DNA of 64,000 nt from NCBI RefSeq assembly GCF_000419585.1, contig NZ_ATTH01000001.1:1448005-1512004 (forward strand). Reading direction: 5' to 3'. The notes below the pieces were generated by a model, which saw only the letters and a program-made list of their open reading frames with translations, made no database searches and was not told where the DNA came from. Below are positions 16,965 through 45,420 of this stretch, piece by piece. The translations under genes and the position numbers were made by a program. The stretch comes from Salisaeta longa DSM 21114 (GTDB lineage Bacteria; Bacteroidota; Rhodothermia; Rhodothermales; Salinibacteraceae). Position 1 is the first letter of the stretch; each line of letters begins with the position of its first letter.

Positions 16965-19148
<2,184 letters not shown>

Positions 19149-23880: not shown

Positions 23881-25401
23881 ATGTTTTCTACCGTTCCCGC
23901 TGCCACCACACACCGCCCGCGCGCCGAGCGTCTCCAGCTACTGGAAGCGCTTCGCACCTCGTTCGACGGGCTCGACACAACCTACGAACGCGCCGATGGC
24001 ACCCGTCAGCGGCGCATTTACCTCGACAGCGCCGCGTCCAACCTGCGCTGCACCGCCGCCCGCGCCATGGCCGACCGGGCGATGCAGCACTACGCCAACA
24101 CGCACTCGCAGCTGCACATGGGGGCATCGCTCATGACGGCCCTTTACGACGAGGCCCACGCCATTGTCCGCCGCTTTGTGGGCGCGCCGGAAGCCTACAC
24201 CGCCATCTTTTGCGGAACGGGCGTGACGGGCGGCCTCAACCGCATGGCGCGCGTGCTTACCGCGCAGCGTCCCTCGCGCGACGTGGTCATCACGACCATG
24301 ATGGAGCACCACGCCAACGATTTGCCGCACCGCAAGCACGCCGGCCGCGTGGTGCACGTGCCGCTTGCGCACGATCCGGACGGCGAAGCGGGCCGCGTGG
24401 ACATGGACGCCCTGCGCCGTGCCATCCGCACCCATGCCGACCGGCTCAACTACGTGGCCGTCACGGCAGCGTCGAACGTCACGGGCATCACCAACCCCGT
24501 GCACGAGATCGCGCGCCTCGCGCATGACGTGGGGGCGCTGTGCGTGGTCGACGCGGCACAGTCGGCGGCGCATAGCCCCATTCGCATAACGGGCGACCGC
24601 GACGACGAGGCCCTCGATGTGGTGTGCCTGAGCGGCCACAAGATCTACGCGCCGGGCAGTCCGGGCGTCATCGTGGCGCGCAAGGACCTGTTTGCCGGGC
24701 ACGAGCCGGAAGAAGTGGGCGGCGGGATCGTGGAGTTTGTCGACACCGAGCGCTACACTGTCACCGACGCGCTGCCCGACCGCGAAGAAACCGGCACGCC
24801 AAACCTGCCGGGCGCCTTCCTGCTCGCCAGCATGCTCCTCTTGATGGAGCGTGTGGGCATGGACCTGATTGCCGAGGACGAGCGCGCCCTCACGCAGTAC
24901 GCCATGGAGCGCTTCACCGCCATCGACGGCTTGCACCTGTACGGCTCGCACCGGCTGGAGGTGGCCGAGCGCATCGGCGTGCTCACGTTTAACCTGGAGG
25001 GACTGCCCCACGGCCTGGTAACGGCTATCCTGAACGACTACTTCGGGATTGCGGTGCGCAACGAGTGCTTCTGTGCGCAACCCTTCGTGCGGCAGCTGCT
25101 GGGGATTGCCGATGCAACCGGCGTGGCCCCCGACTCTTGCCTCGATACCTGCACGCCGCAGGCGCAACCGGGCATGGTGCGCGTGTCGCTCGGCCTGTAC
25201 AATACGCGGGCGGATGTTGACGCAGCGGCCGACGCCCTCGCCGACATCGCCGCACGGCCGGACGCATACCGCTCGAAATACCGCGCGCTGCGCAATGGAC
25301 ACGGCGATTGGGCGCACACCGACTTCAACGTGCCGCCGCACGAGCTGCTGACCCTGGAGGGTGCGGCCGACGATTGGGTGCGCGACGCCTTGTCCTCGTA
25401 G
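23881..25401 (+). CDS. Cysteine desulfurase / class V aminotransferase (SufS-like), long form
   Basis: A 506-residue PLP enzyme of the NifS/SufS superfamily, which releases sulfur from cysteine as an enzyme persulfide for Fe-S cluster or other thio-cofactor synthesis. Lys254 in LSGHKIYAPGSPG binds PLP, VVDAAQSAAH gives the Asp that contacts the pyridine nitrogen, and Cys398 in ECFCAQP sits at the sulfur-accepting position. About 100 residues after it (DAYRSKYRALRNGHGDW...) make it longer than SufS (~406). The start ATG at 23881 follows a low-similarity leader. Its last ~312 bases recur at 29235-29546, where the copy is broken; see the island entry. Confidence 0.88.
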   Translation: MFSTVPAATTHRPRAERLQLLEALRTSFDGLDTTYERADGTRQRRIYLDSAASNLRCTAARAMADRAMQHYANTHSQLHMGASLMTALYDEAHAIVRRFVGAPEAYTAIFCGTGVTGGLNRMARVLTAQRPSRDVVITTMMEHHANDLPHRKHAGRVVHVPLAHDPDGEAGRVDMDALRRAIRTHADRLNYVAVTAASNVTGITNPVHEIARLAHDVGALCVVDAAQSAAHSPIRITGDRDDEALDVVCLSGHKIYAPGSPGVIVARKDLFAGHEPEEVGGGIVEFVDTERYTVTDALPDREETGTPNLPGAFLLASMLLLMERVGMDLIAEDERALTQYAMERFTAIDGLHLYGSHRLEVAERIGVLTFNLEGLPHGLVTAILNDYFGIAVRNECFCAQPFVRQLLGIADATGVAPDSCLDTCTPQAQPGMVRVSLGLYNTRADVDAAADALADIAARPDAYRSKYRALRNGHGDWAHTDFNVPPHELLTLEGAADDWVRDALSS

Positions 25402-25465
25402 GCGACGCCGCACGCAGCGCCCCCGGCCGGTTCATGGTACCCTCGCCTGAACTTGAACCAGGATT
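25090..25465. repeat. Left copy of the ~376-bp direct repeat flanking the restriction-modification island
   Basis: It matches 29235-29610 at a constant offset of 4145 bases with about six mismatches by eye. It covers the last ~312 bases of the cysteine desulfurase gene, the 33-base spacer and the 3' 31 bases of tRNA-Arg. Similarity stops abruptly on both sides (before 25090 and after 25465). Confidence 0.93.
25435..25465 (-). pseudogene. tRNA-Arg 3' fragment (CCA, acceptor 3' strand and T arm only)
   Basis: The minus strand carries AATCCTGGTTCAAGT, then TCAGGCGAGGGTACCA, the 3' part of the intact tRNA-Arg at 29580-29655, with one change in the T stem. The anticodon and D arms are missing; sequence after 25465 is unrelated. 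This is the usual remnant on the far side of an element that integrated at a tRNA 3' end. Confidence 0.88.
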
Positions 25466-25937
25466 CCAAAGGGCAATCAGTAAGTTATCGCACGTAATAG
25501 ACTTACCGGAAATAAAATAAGGCTCCATTGCATTATCTGTCGCGGTTTGGGGTTTTATATGCTGATTTGGTGTGAATATGATTCTTTGGGTTCGGCGCGC
25601 GCCCTAGGTCGCACACTACATTTCGCGGTTGTGGCAAAGTTATGTTGTTCGCTTACCTGTGAAGATGCGCTAGTAAGGGAATATCCGTGCTGCGTGATCC
25701 TTTCGGTACGAGACTGCCAGAGGGAAAAAGCTGTTGCTGGCTGGTCTACTATCTGCGTGTTCTATGTATTGCGCGCATTCCTTACATTACATTCGCGCGC
25801 GGAAGTGTTCAGATTGCAGACAGGGGGGTGTCAACTTGCAGATAAGGGGGCCTATTTGACCGCGAAAACCGGGCTTATAAGCGCTCAAGGCCGATCTGTC
25901 CCCTATGTGTGGTATGATCAGAGGGGTATGTAGTTTA
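25466..25937. other. Lower-GC non-coding stretch inside the island
   Basis: About 470 bases between the tRNA fragment and the restriction-modification gene's stop. Base composition is visibly more AT-rich than the flanks and no reading frame looks like a protein. It contains two direct copies of a motif 22 bases apart: TTGCAGACAGGGGGG (25814-25828) and TTGCAGATAAGGGGG (25836-25850). Repeated motifs of this kind occur at the ends of some insertion sequences, so this may be eroded mobile DNA. Confidence 0.55.
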
Positions 25938-28900
25938 TTACTCCTCCGGCAACCCCAAATCCGGCAGCCCCTCCACGATGTCCACGGTCTTTACGCTGAC
26001 GGTGGTGACGCGCTTGATGAGGTCTGCGATGTACCACTTGTTGTCGGGGTCGTTGGGGTCGTGGGTGATGTCGTAGCGTTTGTAGGTACGCACACGGTAC
26101 TGGTTGACGAGCCATTCCAGCGCGCTGCGGTTCCCCAGACGGTAATCGTGTGCCCGTTCGGGAATGCCTTCGAGCGTGAGGAAGTCGTTGTACTTGATCG
26201 CAGTCTTGTTCTGGCGAAACCGCATTTTCTCAACGCGCCACTCGTAGTTGGCAGCGTCGTCTTCCACTTCATTCAGCGGATACGGCTCCGCGTCTTTGTA
26301 GCCTACGTGCAGCTCGGCCAGTTGCGCACCGGCCTCCACGAAGCCGCGAAATGCGTCTGTATCGGGTGCAAAAGGGATGCGGGGGAGTTGGCGCTTGAGG
26401 TTGCCTTCGTAGCGCTCACGGTAGCCTGTGTGGTGCAGCACGCCGTAGACGTAGTAGAAGATGTCGCGCTTGGTGATGGTCGCATCGTCATAGTGCGACC
26501 GGAAGCGCTCCAGCGCCCAATCGGTCACGTTCTCCCGACGGTTTGTGCCGTCTTCGTCGTAGACGTAGAAGGGGAAGCATTGGGAATCGCCCGTGAGGTG
26601 GAGATCCGCAATCTGGTCTGTGGCGAGACAGTGGAAGTCCTTCGTATTGCTCGTGGTGCGAAGGGCGATAATGACGCTCTCTTCCTCTGATTCACGAGAA
26701 GGCAGCACCTTGGGGAACTGACTGGTTCGGTGTACCAGCGTCCGATCAAAATAGAGGTGTTTTTTGCAGAAAGGGCGGAAGTGTGCATGCCGGATTTTGT
26801 CGGCATCGTAATTTACTCGCTTTCCGCGTTTCGCTGCGCTACGAAGACTACTGCTCCACTTGATTTGCTTGTCATCGTTTAGCAAAAACTCTCGCAGGTT
26901 TGCATCACGGTCATTCCGTACCTCCCAGCGGTGCACTTCATCGTTGTAGGTAGCAATGAACTGCTTGATGCGGTTGCGAAGCTCCGCTTTATCGAAGTCG
27001 TACACCCAGCCATCCCGGTTCGTGTTGACACCAAGACTGTACGTCTCAAAAATCGTCTCCGCCTCACCCCAGTCGGCCTTCTTGTCTTCTTTCGTGCCGA
27101 GGGGAATGTACGCCTCAAACTCCCGCGTCGTCGGCTCCACCAGCCAGCGGTGCTTGGCATCCGGTTCCAGTTCGTCCCACGCGATGCCGCGCCAGTCTTC
27201 GGCGTCGTTCATCACCGCGTAGCGCTCCTCTTTCGTCAGGAACTCCTCCATTCGAAAATAGCGGATGTCGCAGGTTTCGGGGTCGCCGTCTGCATGCTTC
27301 ACGAAGAAGGTGACGCTCACGCCGACCTGAATCCCGAAGACGTTGTGCGTGGTGCCGCTGAGTTTCGGATTCTTGCGGACGTTCCCGCCGCAGTCCAGCA
27401 CGTAGATCGCGTCGAAGTCCTCTGCCAGGTGTTTCCGAACACCATCGAATGAGTTTTTATGGACAAAGCTACTATTTGTCACGTACGCCACGATGCCCTC
27501 ATCCCCAATCCGGTCGGTGGCCCACCGAATCGCCTTCACGTAGGGATCGTAGAGCGCATTTTTGTTCGTGGCTGACGAATCAGATGCATACGTTTCTCGC
27601 ACCCGGCTATCCACGTGTTCATACGTTCTATTTCGGTTATTATCGTTCGCATTAACCTGTTTTGAGTTGTACGGCGGGTTGCCAATCACCACGGTGATGG
27701 ACTGCTCTTGCTGCTGCTTGACGCGCTCGGTGTTCTCTGGCGTGAAGAGTTGCGGGGATTGGCGCTGGTCTTCTGCCTCGAACGTATCCACCAAGCACAC
27801 GCCCTGAAAAGGCTCGTAGGTGCCCATGCGCTCGTAGTAGGCGTGCTCAATGTTGAGTGAGGCGATGTAGTAAGGCAGCAGCATCACTTCGTTGGCGTGC
27901 AACTCGGGATCGCCCTCGGACCCGTATTTCTGCGGAAGTTGGCGACGGGGAATCTCTTGCATCAGGCGCACAATGAAGTTGCCTGTGCCTGTGAATGGGT
28001 CGAGCACATGCACACCCGAATCCCCAATAGACACGCCGAACTCCTCCTGCAAAAGCCCGGTCACGCTGTTCGTCATGAAGTCCACAATGGGCTGCGGCGT
28101 ATACACAATGCCGTGCGTATCGGCTACATCGACCGCAAAGCCCTGAAAGAACTGCTCGTAGACCGTGTTGAGAAACTCTTGCTTCTCGGAAAAGTCGGTG
28201 GCTGCGTCGGCAGCGTTCTCGATGGCCAGATAGAAGCGGTCAAGCGGCTTCAGAAACTCGGTGCGCGAAAAGGAACGCGACGTAAGCGCATCAATGACCT
28301 GCTCAATTTCGCGGGCAATGATGTTGCGGCGCACAAATGCATCATTCTGGAAGACCGTACGGAAGAGGCGGCTTGTGAGCAAGTGCTGAATGAGCATCTC
28401 TTCCACGGCCTCCCGCGAAAGGTTCGGGTTGATGGCCTGCTGGCAGAGCGCAAAGAAGTCGCTGAATGCCTGCCGGAAGCTCGCGTTTTGGTCGAGCTCG
28501 TCTTCAATGATACCGCGTAGTGCCTGCCCGATGTCGGGCACGCGGTCCTTGAACTCGGACACAGCGGCTTCCCACTCTTCATGGGCAGGCTCCTCGTAGT
28601 CAAAGAACATCCGCAGGCAGTCCACAAGGTGCTGCGGGTCCGTAATGTCCGCATCGAACACAACACCGCCGTCCTGCACCAGCACAGCCCGATTGGGCTC
28701 CTGAAAGATGATGTTGCTGGTCGGGTACCCCTTGTCGATCTTCTTCTGGATCTCGCGGTCGAGATCGTCGGCGCTGTCTTTTGCTTCCCAGAAGCCTTTG
28801 CGCAGATCGAAGTGATCCACCAGCACGCCGTCAGGACGAATGTTGCGTTCGCGCAGCGTCTTTTCAGGCACGAGCGTCCAACCCATCTGCTGCCCCCCGT

Positions 28901-29030
28901 GGTTGAGCAGATCCCGAAAGGCCGTGCGCACAGCACCTTCGTGTTCAGCCCCCACGTTGGCATAGGATTGAAGCTGGTCGTAATAGTCCTGAACGGCCTG
29001 ATGAGAGGGCTTGAGGTTCAGTTTTGACAT
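25938..29030 (-). CDS. Single-chain restriction-modification enzyme (type ISP-like/type IIG, no helicase)
   Basis: A 1030-residue protein that should both methylate adenine and cut DNA. Residues ~50-120 are a Mrr-like PD-(D/E)XK nuclease: Pro66-Asp67, then Glu82-Ala-Lys84 in GFWEAKD. After a helical linker comes an N6-adenine methyltransferase of the gamma type, with motif I LDPFTGTGNF near 343-352 and motif IV NPPY at 451-454. The C-terminal ~400 residues would be the target recognition domain. LlaGI-type ISP enzymes have a helicase between nuclease and methylase; here the spacing leaves no room for one. Start 29030 (MSKLNLKPSHQAVQDYYDQL) matches the family. It is the only gene of the island and is richer in Asp/Glu and A/T codons than its neighbours. 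Confidence 0.88.
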   Translation of the reverse strand: MSKLNLKPSHQAVQDYYDQLQSYANVGAEHEGAVRTAFRDLLNHGGQQMGWTLVPEKTLRERNIRPDGVLVDHFDLRKGFWEAKDSADDLDREIQKKIDKGYPTSNIIFQEPNRAVLVQDGGVVFDADITDPQHLVDCLRMFFDYEEPAHEEWEAAVSEFKDRVPDIGQALRGIIEDELDQNASFRQAFSDFFALCQQAINPNLSREAVEEMLIQHLLTSRLFRTVFQNDAFVRRNIIAREIEQVIDALTSRSFSRTEFLKPLDRFYLAIENAADAATDFSEKQEFLNTVYEQFFQGFAVDVADTHGIVYTPQPIVDFMTNSVTGLLQEEFGVSIGDSGVHVLDPFTGTGNFIVRLMQEIPRRQLPQKYGSEGDPELHANEVMLLPYYIASLNIEHAYYERMGTYEPFQGVCLVDTFEAEDQRQSPQLFTPENTERVKQQQEQSITVVIGNPPYNSKQVNANDNNRNRTYEHVDSRVRETYASDSSATNKNALYDPYVKAIRWATDRIGDEGIVAYVTNSSFVHKNSFDGVRKHLAEDFDAIYVLDCGGNVRKNPKLSGTTHNVFGIQVGVSVTFFVKHADGDPETCDIRYFRMEEFLTKEERYAVMNDAEDWRGIAWDELEPDAKHRWLVEPTTREFEAYIPLGTKEDKKADWGEAETIFETYSLGVNTNRDGWVYDFDKAELRNRIKQFIATYNDEVHRWEVRNDRDANLREFLLNDDKQIKWSSSLRSAAKRGKRVNYDADKIRHAHFRPFCKKHLYFDRTLVHRTSQFPKVLPSRESEEESVIIALRTTSNTKDFHCLATDQIADLHLTGDSQCFPFYVYDEDGTNRRENVTDWALERFRSHYDDATITKRDIFYYVYGVLHHTGYRERYEGNLKRQLPRIPFAPDTDAFRGFVEAGAQLAELHVGYKDAEPYPLNEVEDDAANYEWRVEKMRFRQNKTAIKYNDFLTLEGIPERAHDYRLGNRSALEWLVNQYRVRTYKRYDITHDPNDPDNKWYIADLIKRVTTVSVKTVDIVEGLPDLGLPEE

Positions 29031-29234
29031 GCGGGATGCGAAGGTTTTGGATGTGTGAGCACGCGTATACACGCACGCTTGTGGCCCAACGTGCGTTTCG
29101 TGGGATACAGATTGAGGCTGCAAAAGCGGTGTTTACCGGACACTTACACGATGCAGGATCTACCCACGGGGCCGGATTGGGACGCGGGGCCATGTCTGCT
29201 CTGCTGCGTCCGGTGCCTGCCCCGATTGCTAAAA

Positions 29235-29546
29235 CGGCAACTGCTGGGCATCGCCGATGCAACCGGCGTGGCTCCCGACTCTTGCCTCGATACCTGCACG
29301 CCGCAGGAGCAACCGGGCATGGTGCGCGTGTCGCTCGGCCTGTACAATACGCGGGCGGATGTTGACGCAGCGGCCGACGCCCTCGCCGACATCGCCGCAC
29401 GGCCGGACGCATACCGCTCGAAATACCGCGCGCTGCGCAATGGACACGGCGATTGGGCGCACACCGACTTCAACGTGCCGCCGCACGAGCTGCTGACCCT
29501 GGAGGGTGCGGCCGACGATTGGGTGCGCGACGCCTTGTCCTCGTAG
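29235..29546 (+). pseudogene. Cysteine desulfurase 3' fragment
   Basis: The frame encodes the last ~103 residues of the desulfurase (from LLGIADATGVAPDSCLDTC to the stop), nearly identical to the complete gene, with a Gln/Glu-type difference near CTPQ. The PLP lysine and active cysteine regions are absent and the upstream sequence (29031-29234) is unrelated, so it cannot be a working enzyme. Confidence 0.88.
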
Positions 29547-29610
29547 GCGACGCCGCACGCAGCGCCCCCGGCCGGTTCATGGTACCCTCGCCTGGACTTG
29601 AACCAGGATT
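29235..29610. repeat. Right copy of the ~376-bp direct repeat flanking the island
   Basis: Counterpart of 25090-25465, offset 4145 bases. It holds a desulfurase 3' fragment, the spacer and the 3' part of the intact tRNA-Arg. Differences from the left copy include one in the tRNA T stem (C here, T on the left, tRNA strand) and several near the start of the repeat. Confidence 0.93.
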
Positions 29611-29655
29611 TGCAGCTTAGGAGGCCGCCGTTCTATCCAGTTGAACTACGAGGGC
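29580..29655 (-). tRNA. tRNA-Arg (anticodon CCT)
   Basis: The minus strand folds as a complete 76-nt tRNA with encoded CCA. Acceptor GCCCTCG/CGAGGGT, D stem GTTC/GAAC, anticodon stem GCGGC/GCTGC with loop CTCCTAA (anticodon CCT), T stem CCTGG/CCAGG with loop TTCAAGT, then A73 and CCA. The first acceptor pair is G1-U72, which is unusual. The gene is the target of the island: its 3' part is duplicated at 25435-25465. Confidence 0.95.
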
Positions 29656-44703: not shown

Positions 44704-44840
44704 CAATAACGGCGCATGCATGAACACAGGAATGTACCCTCTTAACATGCAAGCGCGCCCAAGCGGATGCAAGCAAAGCGCTTCCACGCCACGGCAATTG
44801 CATCAATCTTGCCGGTTCGCGCTGACGCCGTTCGGTTGGA

Positions 44841-45118
44841 TTTGCGCATCTGCATGCTCAACGCACGAAAAAGCAGTACGCTCCTTGTCATCGCAAGGAG
44901 TGCGGGGCCTTGGCCGTGCCACTGGTGCGGATGCGAGCGACGGGGGGCCGAAGGTCATACTATGATCGGGCCGGAGGTCATGCCATAGGTGCGATTTCCA
45001 TGTACGGGCAGGAGTGCACCATTGTGGAGATTGCCACGTCGCCTTCGGCTCCTCGCAATGACAAAAGGGGGAAATGCAAAAACGATACGTGAATGGTTCA
45101 GATGGTCGATCGGCTTGA
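44841..45118. repeat. Tandem repeat unit A with internal inverted repeat
   Basis: Begins TTTGCGCATCTGCATGC and ends near GATCGGCTTGA. Inside lie TTGTCATCGCAAGGAG (44885-44900) and CTCCTCGCAATGACAA (45049-45064), near-perfect inverted copies ~150 bases apart. The segment GAGATTGCCACGTCGCC, followed by TTCGGCTCCTCGCAATGAC, belongs to a repeat type dispersed in many bacterial genomes (from memory). Confidence 0.85.
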
Positions 45119-45420
45119 TTTGCCCACCTGCACGCGTGACACACAAAAAAGCAATACACTCTTTGTCATCGTGAGGACTGAGGGGCCTTGGTCATGCCAC
45201 TGGTGCGGATGCGAAGGACGTGCGGACCGCGGGTCATATCTATGATGGGGCCGAAGGTCATGCCATAGGTGCGATTTCCATGTACGGGCAGGAGTGCACC
45301 ATTGTGGAGATTGCCACGTCGCCTTCGGCTCCTCGCAATGACAAAAGGGGGGAAATGGAAAAACGATACGTGAATGGTTCAGATGGCCGATCGGCTTGAT
45401 TCGCCCATCTGCACGCCTGC
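45119..45420. repeat. Tandem repeat unit B plus a short third copy
   Basis: Unit B (45119-45399) aligns with unit A over its whole length; 45265-45400 is almost identical to 44985-45118, while the first part has diverged. Inverted repeats are TTGTCATCGTGAGGA (45163-45177) and CTCCTCGCAATGACAA (45329-45344). A third copy starts at 45400 (TCGCCCATCTGCACGCCTGC) and stops after ~20 bases. The period is ~280 bases. Confidence 0.85.

Follow-up and report, generated by a model that had tools for sequence, protein, structure and literature searches.

Insertion accompanied by a long duplication of the target is classically associated with restriction-modification (R-M) genes, and has been proposed to occur in one step in Helicobacter pylori and others (Nobusato et al. 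2000; Furuta et al. 2010, as related in PMC3031569, PMC1643837 and PMC4978471). Members of this class combine a lone R-M gene with a long direct target repeat of variable length and a target gene that is complete at one end of the insert but truncated at the other; neither transposase nor integrase is present. Islands that integrate into tRNA genes (tDNA islands; Islander, PMC4383910) instead have an intact tRNA gene on one side and a 3′ fragment in the same orientation on the other, with the insert downstream of the tRNA; the tRNA T-arm is among their usual crossover regions (1836 T-stem-region sites in Islander, next to 2083 anticodon sites). A further relevant arrangement is the duplication around ICEhptfs4b of H. 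pylori ELS37 (PMC4615327), where a host-gene direct repeat surrounds a mobile element with one homologous and one non-homologous junction.

The locus described here, in a 64-kb window of the Salisaeta longa DSM 21114 genome (the whole stretch of DNA that was analysed), bears a likeness to each of these. It has the features of the R-M class just listed and differs from that class in that a tRNA gene contains one of its ends, the repeat copies differ at their ends, and the host is of a Rhodothermales type rather than Helicobacter. With the tDNA islands it shares the tRNA arrangement, a T-arm boundary and the position of the insert downstream of the tRNA. Unlike them it contains no integrase, and its repeat runs 345 bp past the tRNA into the neighbouring gene; the insert (3769 bp) exceeds the length of at least 2 kb in Islander’s definition but has no tyrosine integrase inside it, which the definition also demands. 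ICEhptfs4b is alike in its host-gene repeat and in its explanation by such a pair of junctions, whereas its duplication measures 1577 bp, lies in a restriction gene, surrounds a ~50-kb ICE and involves no tRNA. Since R-M genes are the classic case of long target duplication, the anatomy is not without precedent; the observation itself is well supported, and its twist is the tRNA boundary together with a second, related case (genome G018, see below).

Base-by-base alignment of the two repeat copies (Table 1) yielded 376 bp with 370 identical positions, six mismatches, no gaps and an offset of 4145 bp, which is the period of the arrangement, and the similarity ends sharply beyond both limits. 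This is the longest direct repeat of the window (self-BLAST E = 0; repeat finder), and it comprises 312 bp from the 3′ end of a cysteine desulfurase gene (the last ~104 codons with the stop), 33 bp of spacer and the final 31 nt of tRNA-Arg(CCT), which ARAGORN detected as the only tRNA gene in the window. On the left the desulfurase is intact and the tRNA broken, while on the right the desulfurase is cut down to its last ~104 codons and the tRNA is intact; when the flanks are joined within the repeat, a complete desulfurase end and tRNA-Arg result. A sequence-only reading had already described this mirror-image layout, its exact 4145-base offset and a duplicated segment of about 376 bp running through the spacer and ~312 bp of the neighbouring gene, all of which the alignment, ARAGORN and the joining of the flanks bear out. 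Its description of the geometry as Campbell-type with an exceptionally long repeat, and its suggestion that host-type DNA from beyond the tRNA came along by imprecise excision or homologous recombination, are likewise consistent with our data. It overlooked the cargo, a lone R-M gene with no integrase, and placed its emphasis elsewhere than on the strong clustering of the mismatches and on the 3.8-kb unique insert with its one recognisable gene.

The insert (25466-29234) lies downstream of the 3′ end of the tRNA, and the displaced 3′ fragment keeps the tRNA’s orientation. One end of the repeat (25465/25466) falls within the T-arm, according to tRNA position numbers assigned by hand, and the other is an arbitrary point in coding sequence. 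The encoded CCA was considered as a sign of a tRNA end supplied by the element and was rejected, since CCA is also encoded by about half of the genome’s other tRNA genes that were examined. Apart from the 376-bp repeat, self-BLAST returned a single match in the window, a local tandem repeat at 44829-45419 made up of two adjoining segments of ~310 bp that are 88% identical and overlap slightly.

Table 1 Features of the desulfurase/tRNA-Arg locus (positions in the window)
Feature	Coordinates	Strand	Basis or remark
Intact cysteine desulfurase, SufS/CsdA-like, 506 aa, ATG at 23881	23881..25401	+	Pfam, NCBIfam, alignment
Left copy of 376-bp direct repeat	25090..25465		Alignment, repeat finder
tRNA-Arg 3′ fragment (T-arm, acceptor 3′ strand, CCA); G53-C61 pair broken	25435..25465	-	Alignment
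A+T-rich left end of insert, 49% GC, no recognisable gene	25466..25937		472 bp
Helicase-less single-chain R-M enzyme, 1030 aa, intact	25938..29030	-	Pfam, PADLOC, structure match, motifs
Stretch between R-M start codon and right repeat	29031..29234		No convincing match elsewhere, best E 0.002
Right copy of 376-bp direct repeat (truncated desulfurase end, spacer, tRNA-Arg 3′ part)	29235..29610		Alignment, repeat finder
Intact tRNA-Arg(CCT)	29580..29655	-	ARAGORN

The domains of the insert’s gene product are Type_ISP_C (1e-103), ISP_coupler and N6_Mtase (Pfam), and its best match among the PADLOC models is to type IIG (REase_MTase_IIG). It aligns end to end with a solved structure of 1029 aa, 7lo5 (residues 11-1023, E 1.5e-215), but with the type ISP enzymes LlaGI and LlaBIII only from residue 180 onward. 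The motifs DPFTGTGNF and NPPYN of a methyltransferase and RPD...EAK, resembling that of a nuclease, are present. The Pfam scan detected no helicase domain, so that the helicase-like ATPase that type ISP enzymes carry between nuclease and coupler is lacking. Because of these domains, PADLOC and structure matches and motifs, we assign the gene to a predicted, apparently intact helicase-less type IIG enzyme related to type ISP, its single chain combining an N-terminal nuclease, an N6-adenine methyltransferase and a C-terminal recognition domain, as is the criterion for type IIG. Methyltransferase, coupler and recognition domains are common to this enzyme, to LlaGI and LlaBIII, and to the equally long solved type IIG enzyme (7lo5/7lvv), which we take to be DrdV, whereas LlaGI and LlaBIII, which carry the ATPase part, are much longer.

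Neither integrase nor transposase was found in the insert, and the tyrosine recombinases and integrases that the genome does possess are located outside it. Its 472-bp left end gave no meaningful match in 60 related genomes or phages, which were searched for a parent island, and viral contigs contained no relatives of the R-M gene. The G+C content is 57% for the R-M gene (73% at third positions) and 68% for the desulfurase (86% at third positions), the latter being assigned by Pfam Aminotran_5 (5e-69) and a SufS subfamily match of NCBIfam below its cut-off; the C-terminus of the left, intact desulfurase aligns with relatives up to a few residues from its end. Elsewhere in the genome, outside the window (C1:1532739-1535779; L204:6740-9780), three complete tRNA-Leu(CAA) genes stand in tandem 1.3 and 1.6 kb apart, with at least 115 nt in common, including sequence upstream of the tRNA, and with a partial tyrosine integrase between the second and the third; this array looks like small elements that each carry a whole tRNA.

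The six mismatches between the copies (left/right: 25095 G/A, 25104 G/C, 25107 T/C, 25128 C/T, 25163 C/A and 25450 A/G) are spread unevenly, five falling in the first 74 bp and one 16 bp from the other end, with 286 identical bases in between. With six changes placed at random, an identical run of this length would arise with a probability of about 0.001. Four of the five mismatches in the desulfurase are synonymous, a weak bias given five sites (P about 0.02), and the fifth exchanges A for E, a residue also seen in relatives. At 72-76% DNA identity, such relatives are nearly uninformative for polarising the mismatches. The change at 25450 lies in the left fragment, which is non-functional, and disrupts the conserved T-stem pair G53-C61; for this reason it may represent decay. 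The uneven distribution fits a crossover between two alleles, leaving a mosaic, and the divergent 74 bp are as expected of a second working allele (four synonymous changes plus A/E); the same pattern is equally expected from gene conversion that keeps the middle of two old copies alike. Since both routes give this pattern, a foreign source is a possibility only. The earlier reading, which had taken about six mismatches as a sign of a related source genome or of later divergence, was right in its count, but the mismatches alone do not establish the foreign source, as conversion too would confine differences to the ends.

Among relatives with a clear desulfurase match (27 genomes plus 17 wider loci, the latter drawn from species genomes that are largely the same organisms, all outside the host’s genus), tRNA-Arg was never found beside the desulfurase, and tRNA-Arg(CCT) of relatives sits in other surroundings. 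As no relative examined shows this adjacency, this lineage is the most likely source of the copied segment, which extends across the desulfurase-tRNA junction. The desulfurase search of species genomes recognised no sibling genome of the same genus, and a single-copy empty site was not seen among the relatives examined, all of other genera. A search for the exact tRNA-end pattern found no desulfurase-tRNA segment on viral contigs, and plasmids gave matches of tRNA size only.

Of the homologues of the R-M enzyme, the closest (68% aa identity) is encoded in G018, a genome assigned to the genus Salinibacter via a named sister genome. Its gene belongs to a 13.2-kb island located at tRNA-Lys/tRNA-Leu, which also carries an intact tyrosine integrase. 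This island is flanked by a 161-bp direct repeat of 99% identity (L071:4487-4647 and 17725-17885) that consists of the 5′ 25-26 nt of tRNA-Leu, the spacer and the 3′ half of tRNA-Lys, while the sister genomes have a plain tRNA-Lys/tRNA-Leu pair. Both copies share a spacer peculiar to G018, which implies a local or same-strain origin for this repeat as well. One island boundary falls in the anticodon loop of tRNA-Lys; besides the T-arm, this is the other region where crossovers usually occur. At the right end of the island the assembly lacks the 5′ half of tRNA-Lys(TTT) and about 90 bp; this may be a misassembly, and a genuine loss would have serious consequences for the cell.

The idea that members of the enzyme family generally have flanking repeats was rejected, as a scripted check of 29 other loci, in which several contigs end near the R-M gene so that repeats could be missed there, found one only at the closest homologue. 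Some other homologues lie near tRNA genes: one of 50% identity (G302, L216:8349-11604) starts 106 bp past the 3′ end of tRNA-Ser(GCT) and has the orientation with respect to its tRNA that is seen in the window, and two more lie 1.5 kb from tRNA-Pro (G165) and about 4 kb from tRNA-Leu (G036). At the two of these loci that were followed up, no matching tRNA fragments in the same orientation were present within about 50 kb, and none of the right orientation was found at G302; closeness to tRNAs was thus not used as evidence.

The layout is best explained by an imprecise, homology-driven insertion rather than by ordinary integrase action. We tentatively favour, with somewhat less than even confidence, a tRNA-targeted island whose integrase was lost in an imprecise event and which took host DNA along and entered by homologous recombination, the insert being a putative remnant of this mobile island with its type IIG gene. 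The donor would have been a strain of the same lineage with the desulfurase beside tRNA-Arg, in which the island had integrated with the crossover in the T-arm part of the tRNA (25465/25466). It may then have left imprecisely, in the manner of lambda dgal, taking the 3′ fragment of the tRNA, the spacer and ~312 bp of the desulfurase, and leaving behind its tRNA-proximal end, the possible position of the integrase, with 29234/29235 as the illegitimate joint. The resulting circle, or an equivalent incoming molecule, would have had 376 bp of homology to the desulfurase-tRNA region and needed no integrase, and its entry by one homologous crossover would place the intact desulfurase on the left and the intact tRNA on the right; exchange during this crossover, or later conversion between the copies, could yield the identical middle and the differing ends. 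This scenario would account for every feature, and the intact integrase of the G018 island supports it. Against it, searches of plasmids, viral contigs, relatives and phages found no donor strain, circle or integrase-bearing parent island, and in this one case the boundary may lie in a tRNA gene by chance.

If an ordinary tRNA island with the usual short repeat had been damaged later, its integrase end being replaced by DNA from an empty-site strain, the anatomy would be identical and the loss of the integrase also explained. Homologous recombination on the tRNA side would here be paired with an illegitimate event inside the island (homology-facilitated illegitimate recombination), so that desulfurase 3′ end, spacer and tRNA form the new end; the 1577-bp duplication around the Helicobacter ICE, with its one homologous and one non-homologous junction, is a closely similar case (PMC4615327), and domestication has been suggested to come about when incoming DNA deletes mobility genes (PMC4795794). 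The right desulfurase piece would, however, all be donor DNA, and a second event is needed to explain the abrupt switch from five mismatches within 74 bp to a run of 286 bp without any; we consider this course rather unlikely. A main rival, which we also consider rather unlikely, is that the R-M gene inserted itself in one step and duplicated a 376-bp target, even though the lone gene, the missing integrase and transposase, the target intact in sum and the long repeat are features of that class (PMC3031569, PMC1643837, PMC4978471) and the closest homologue too has a long repeat, with the G018-specific spacer in both copies. The end in the T-arm would then be a coincidence, the G018 integrase and anticodon-loop boundary point to tRNA targeting in both islands, and the differences at the repeat ends require later change plus conversion. 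Ordinary integration by an integrase acting in trans, for an element whose attachment site happened to contain a long host-identical stretch, is improbable: the tRNA target, orientation and T-arm boundary are typical and the genome has other tyrosine recombinases, but an attachment site has no reason to hold 312 bp of host coding sequence, the source of which is left unexplained. Finally, a 376-bp repeat exceeds short-read length and could invite an assembly artefact; yet a single 3.19-Mb contig contains the unique insert with both of its flanking copies, mismatches occur at each end of the repeat, the junctions are clean single changes and each side completes one gene, which makes this highly improbable.

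A broader idea, which we regard as a long shot, is that helicase-less type IIG genes of this family travel by a so far unrecognised mode of insertion, targeted to tRNA genes and regularly duplicating 100-400 bp of host DNA outside the tRNA. If true, this mode (376 bp here, 161 bp at the closest homologue) would tie tRNA islands to the unexplained long target duplication of R-M genes. R-M units with such flanks can amplify via unequal crossing-over (PMC3031569). With 286 identical bases, RecA recombination between the copies should delete the S. longa island without a scar or amplify it. Loss of an R-M gene may be countered by post-segregational killing, which is established in other R-M systems. 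For the mechanism of long target duplication by R-M genes, a question dating from 2000, the combination of a tRNA end with an arbitrary gene end suggests that at least some of these insertions are integrase-targeted islands reworked by homologous recombination.
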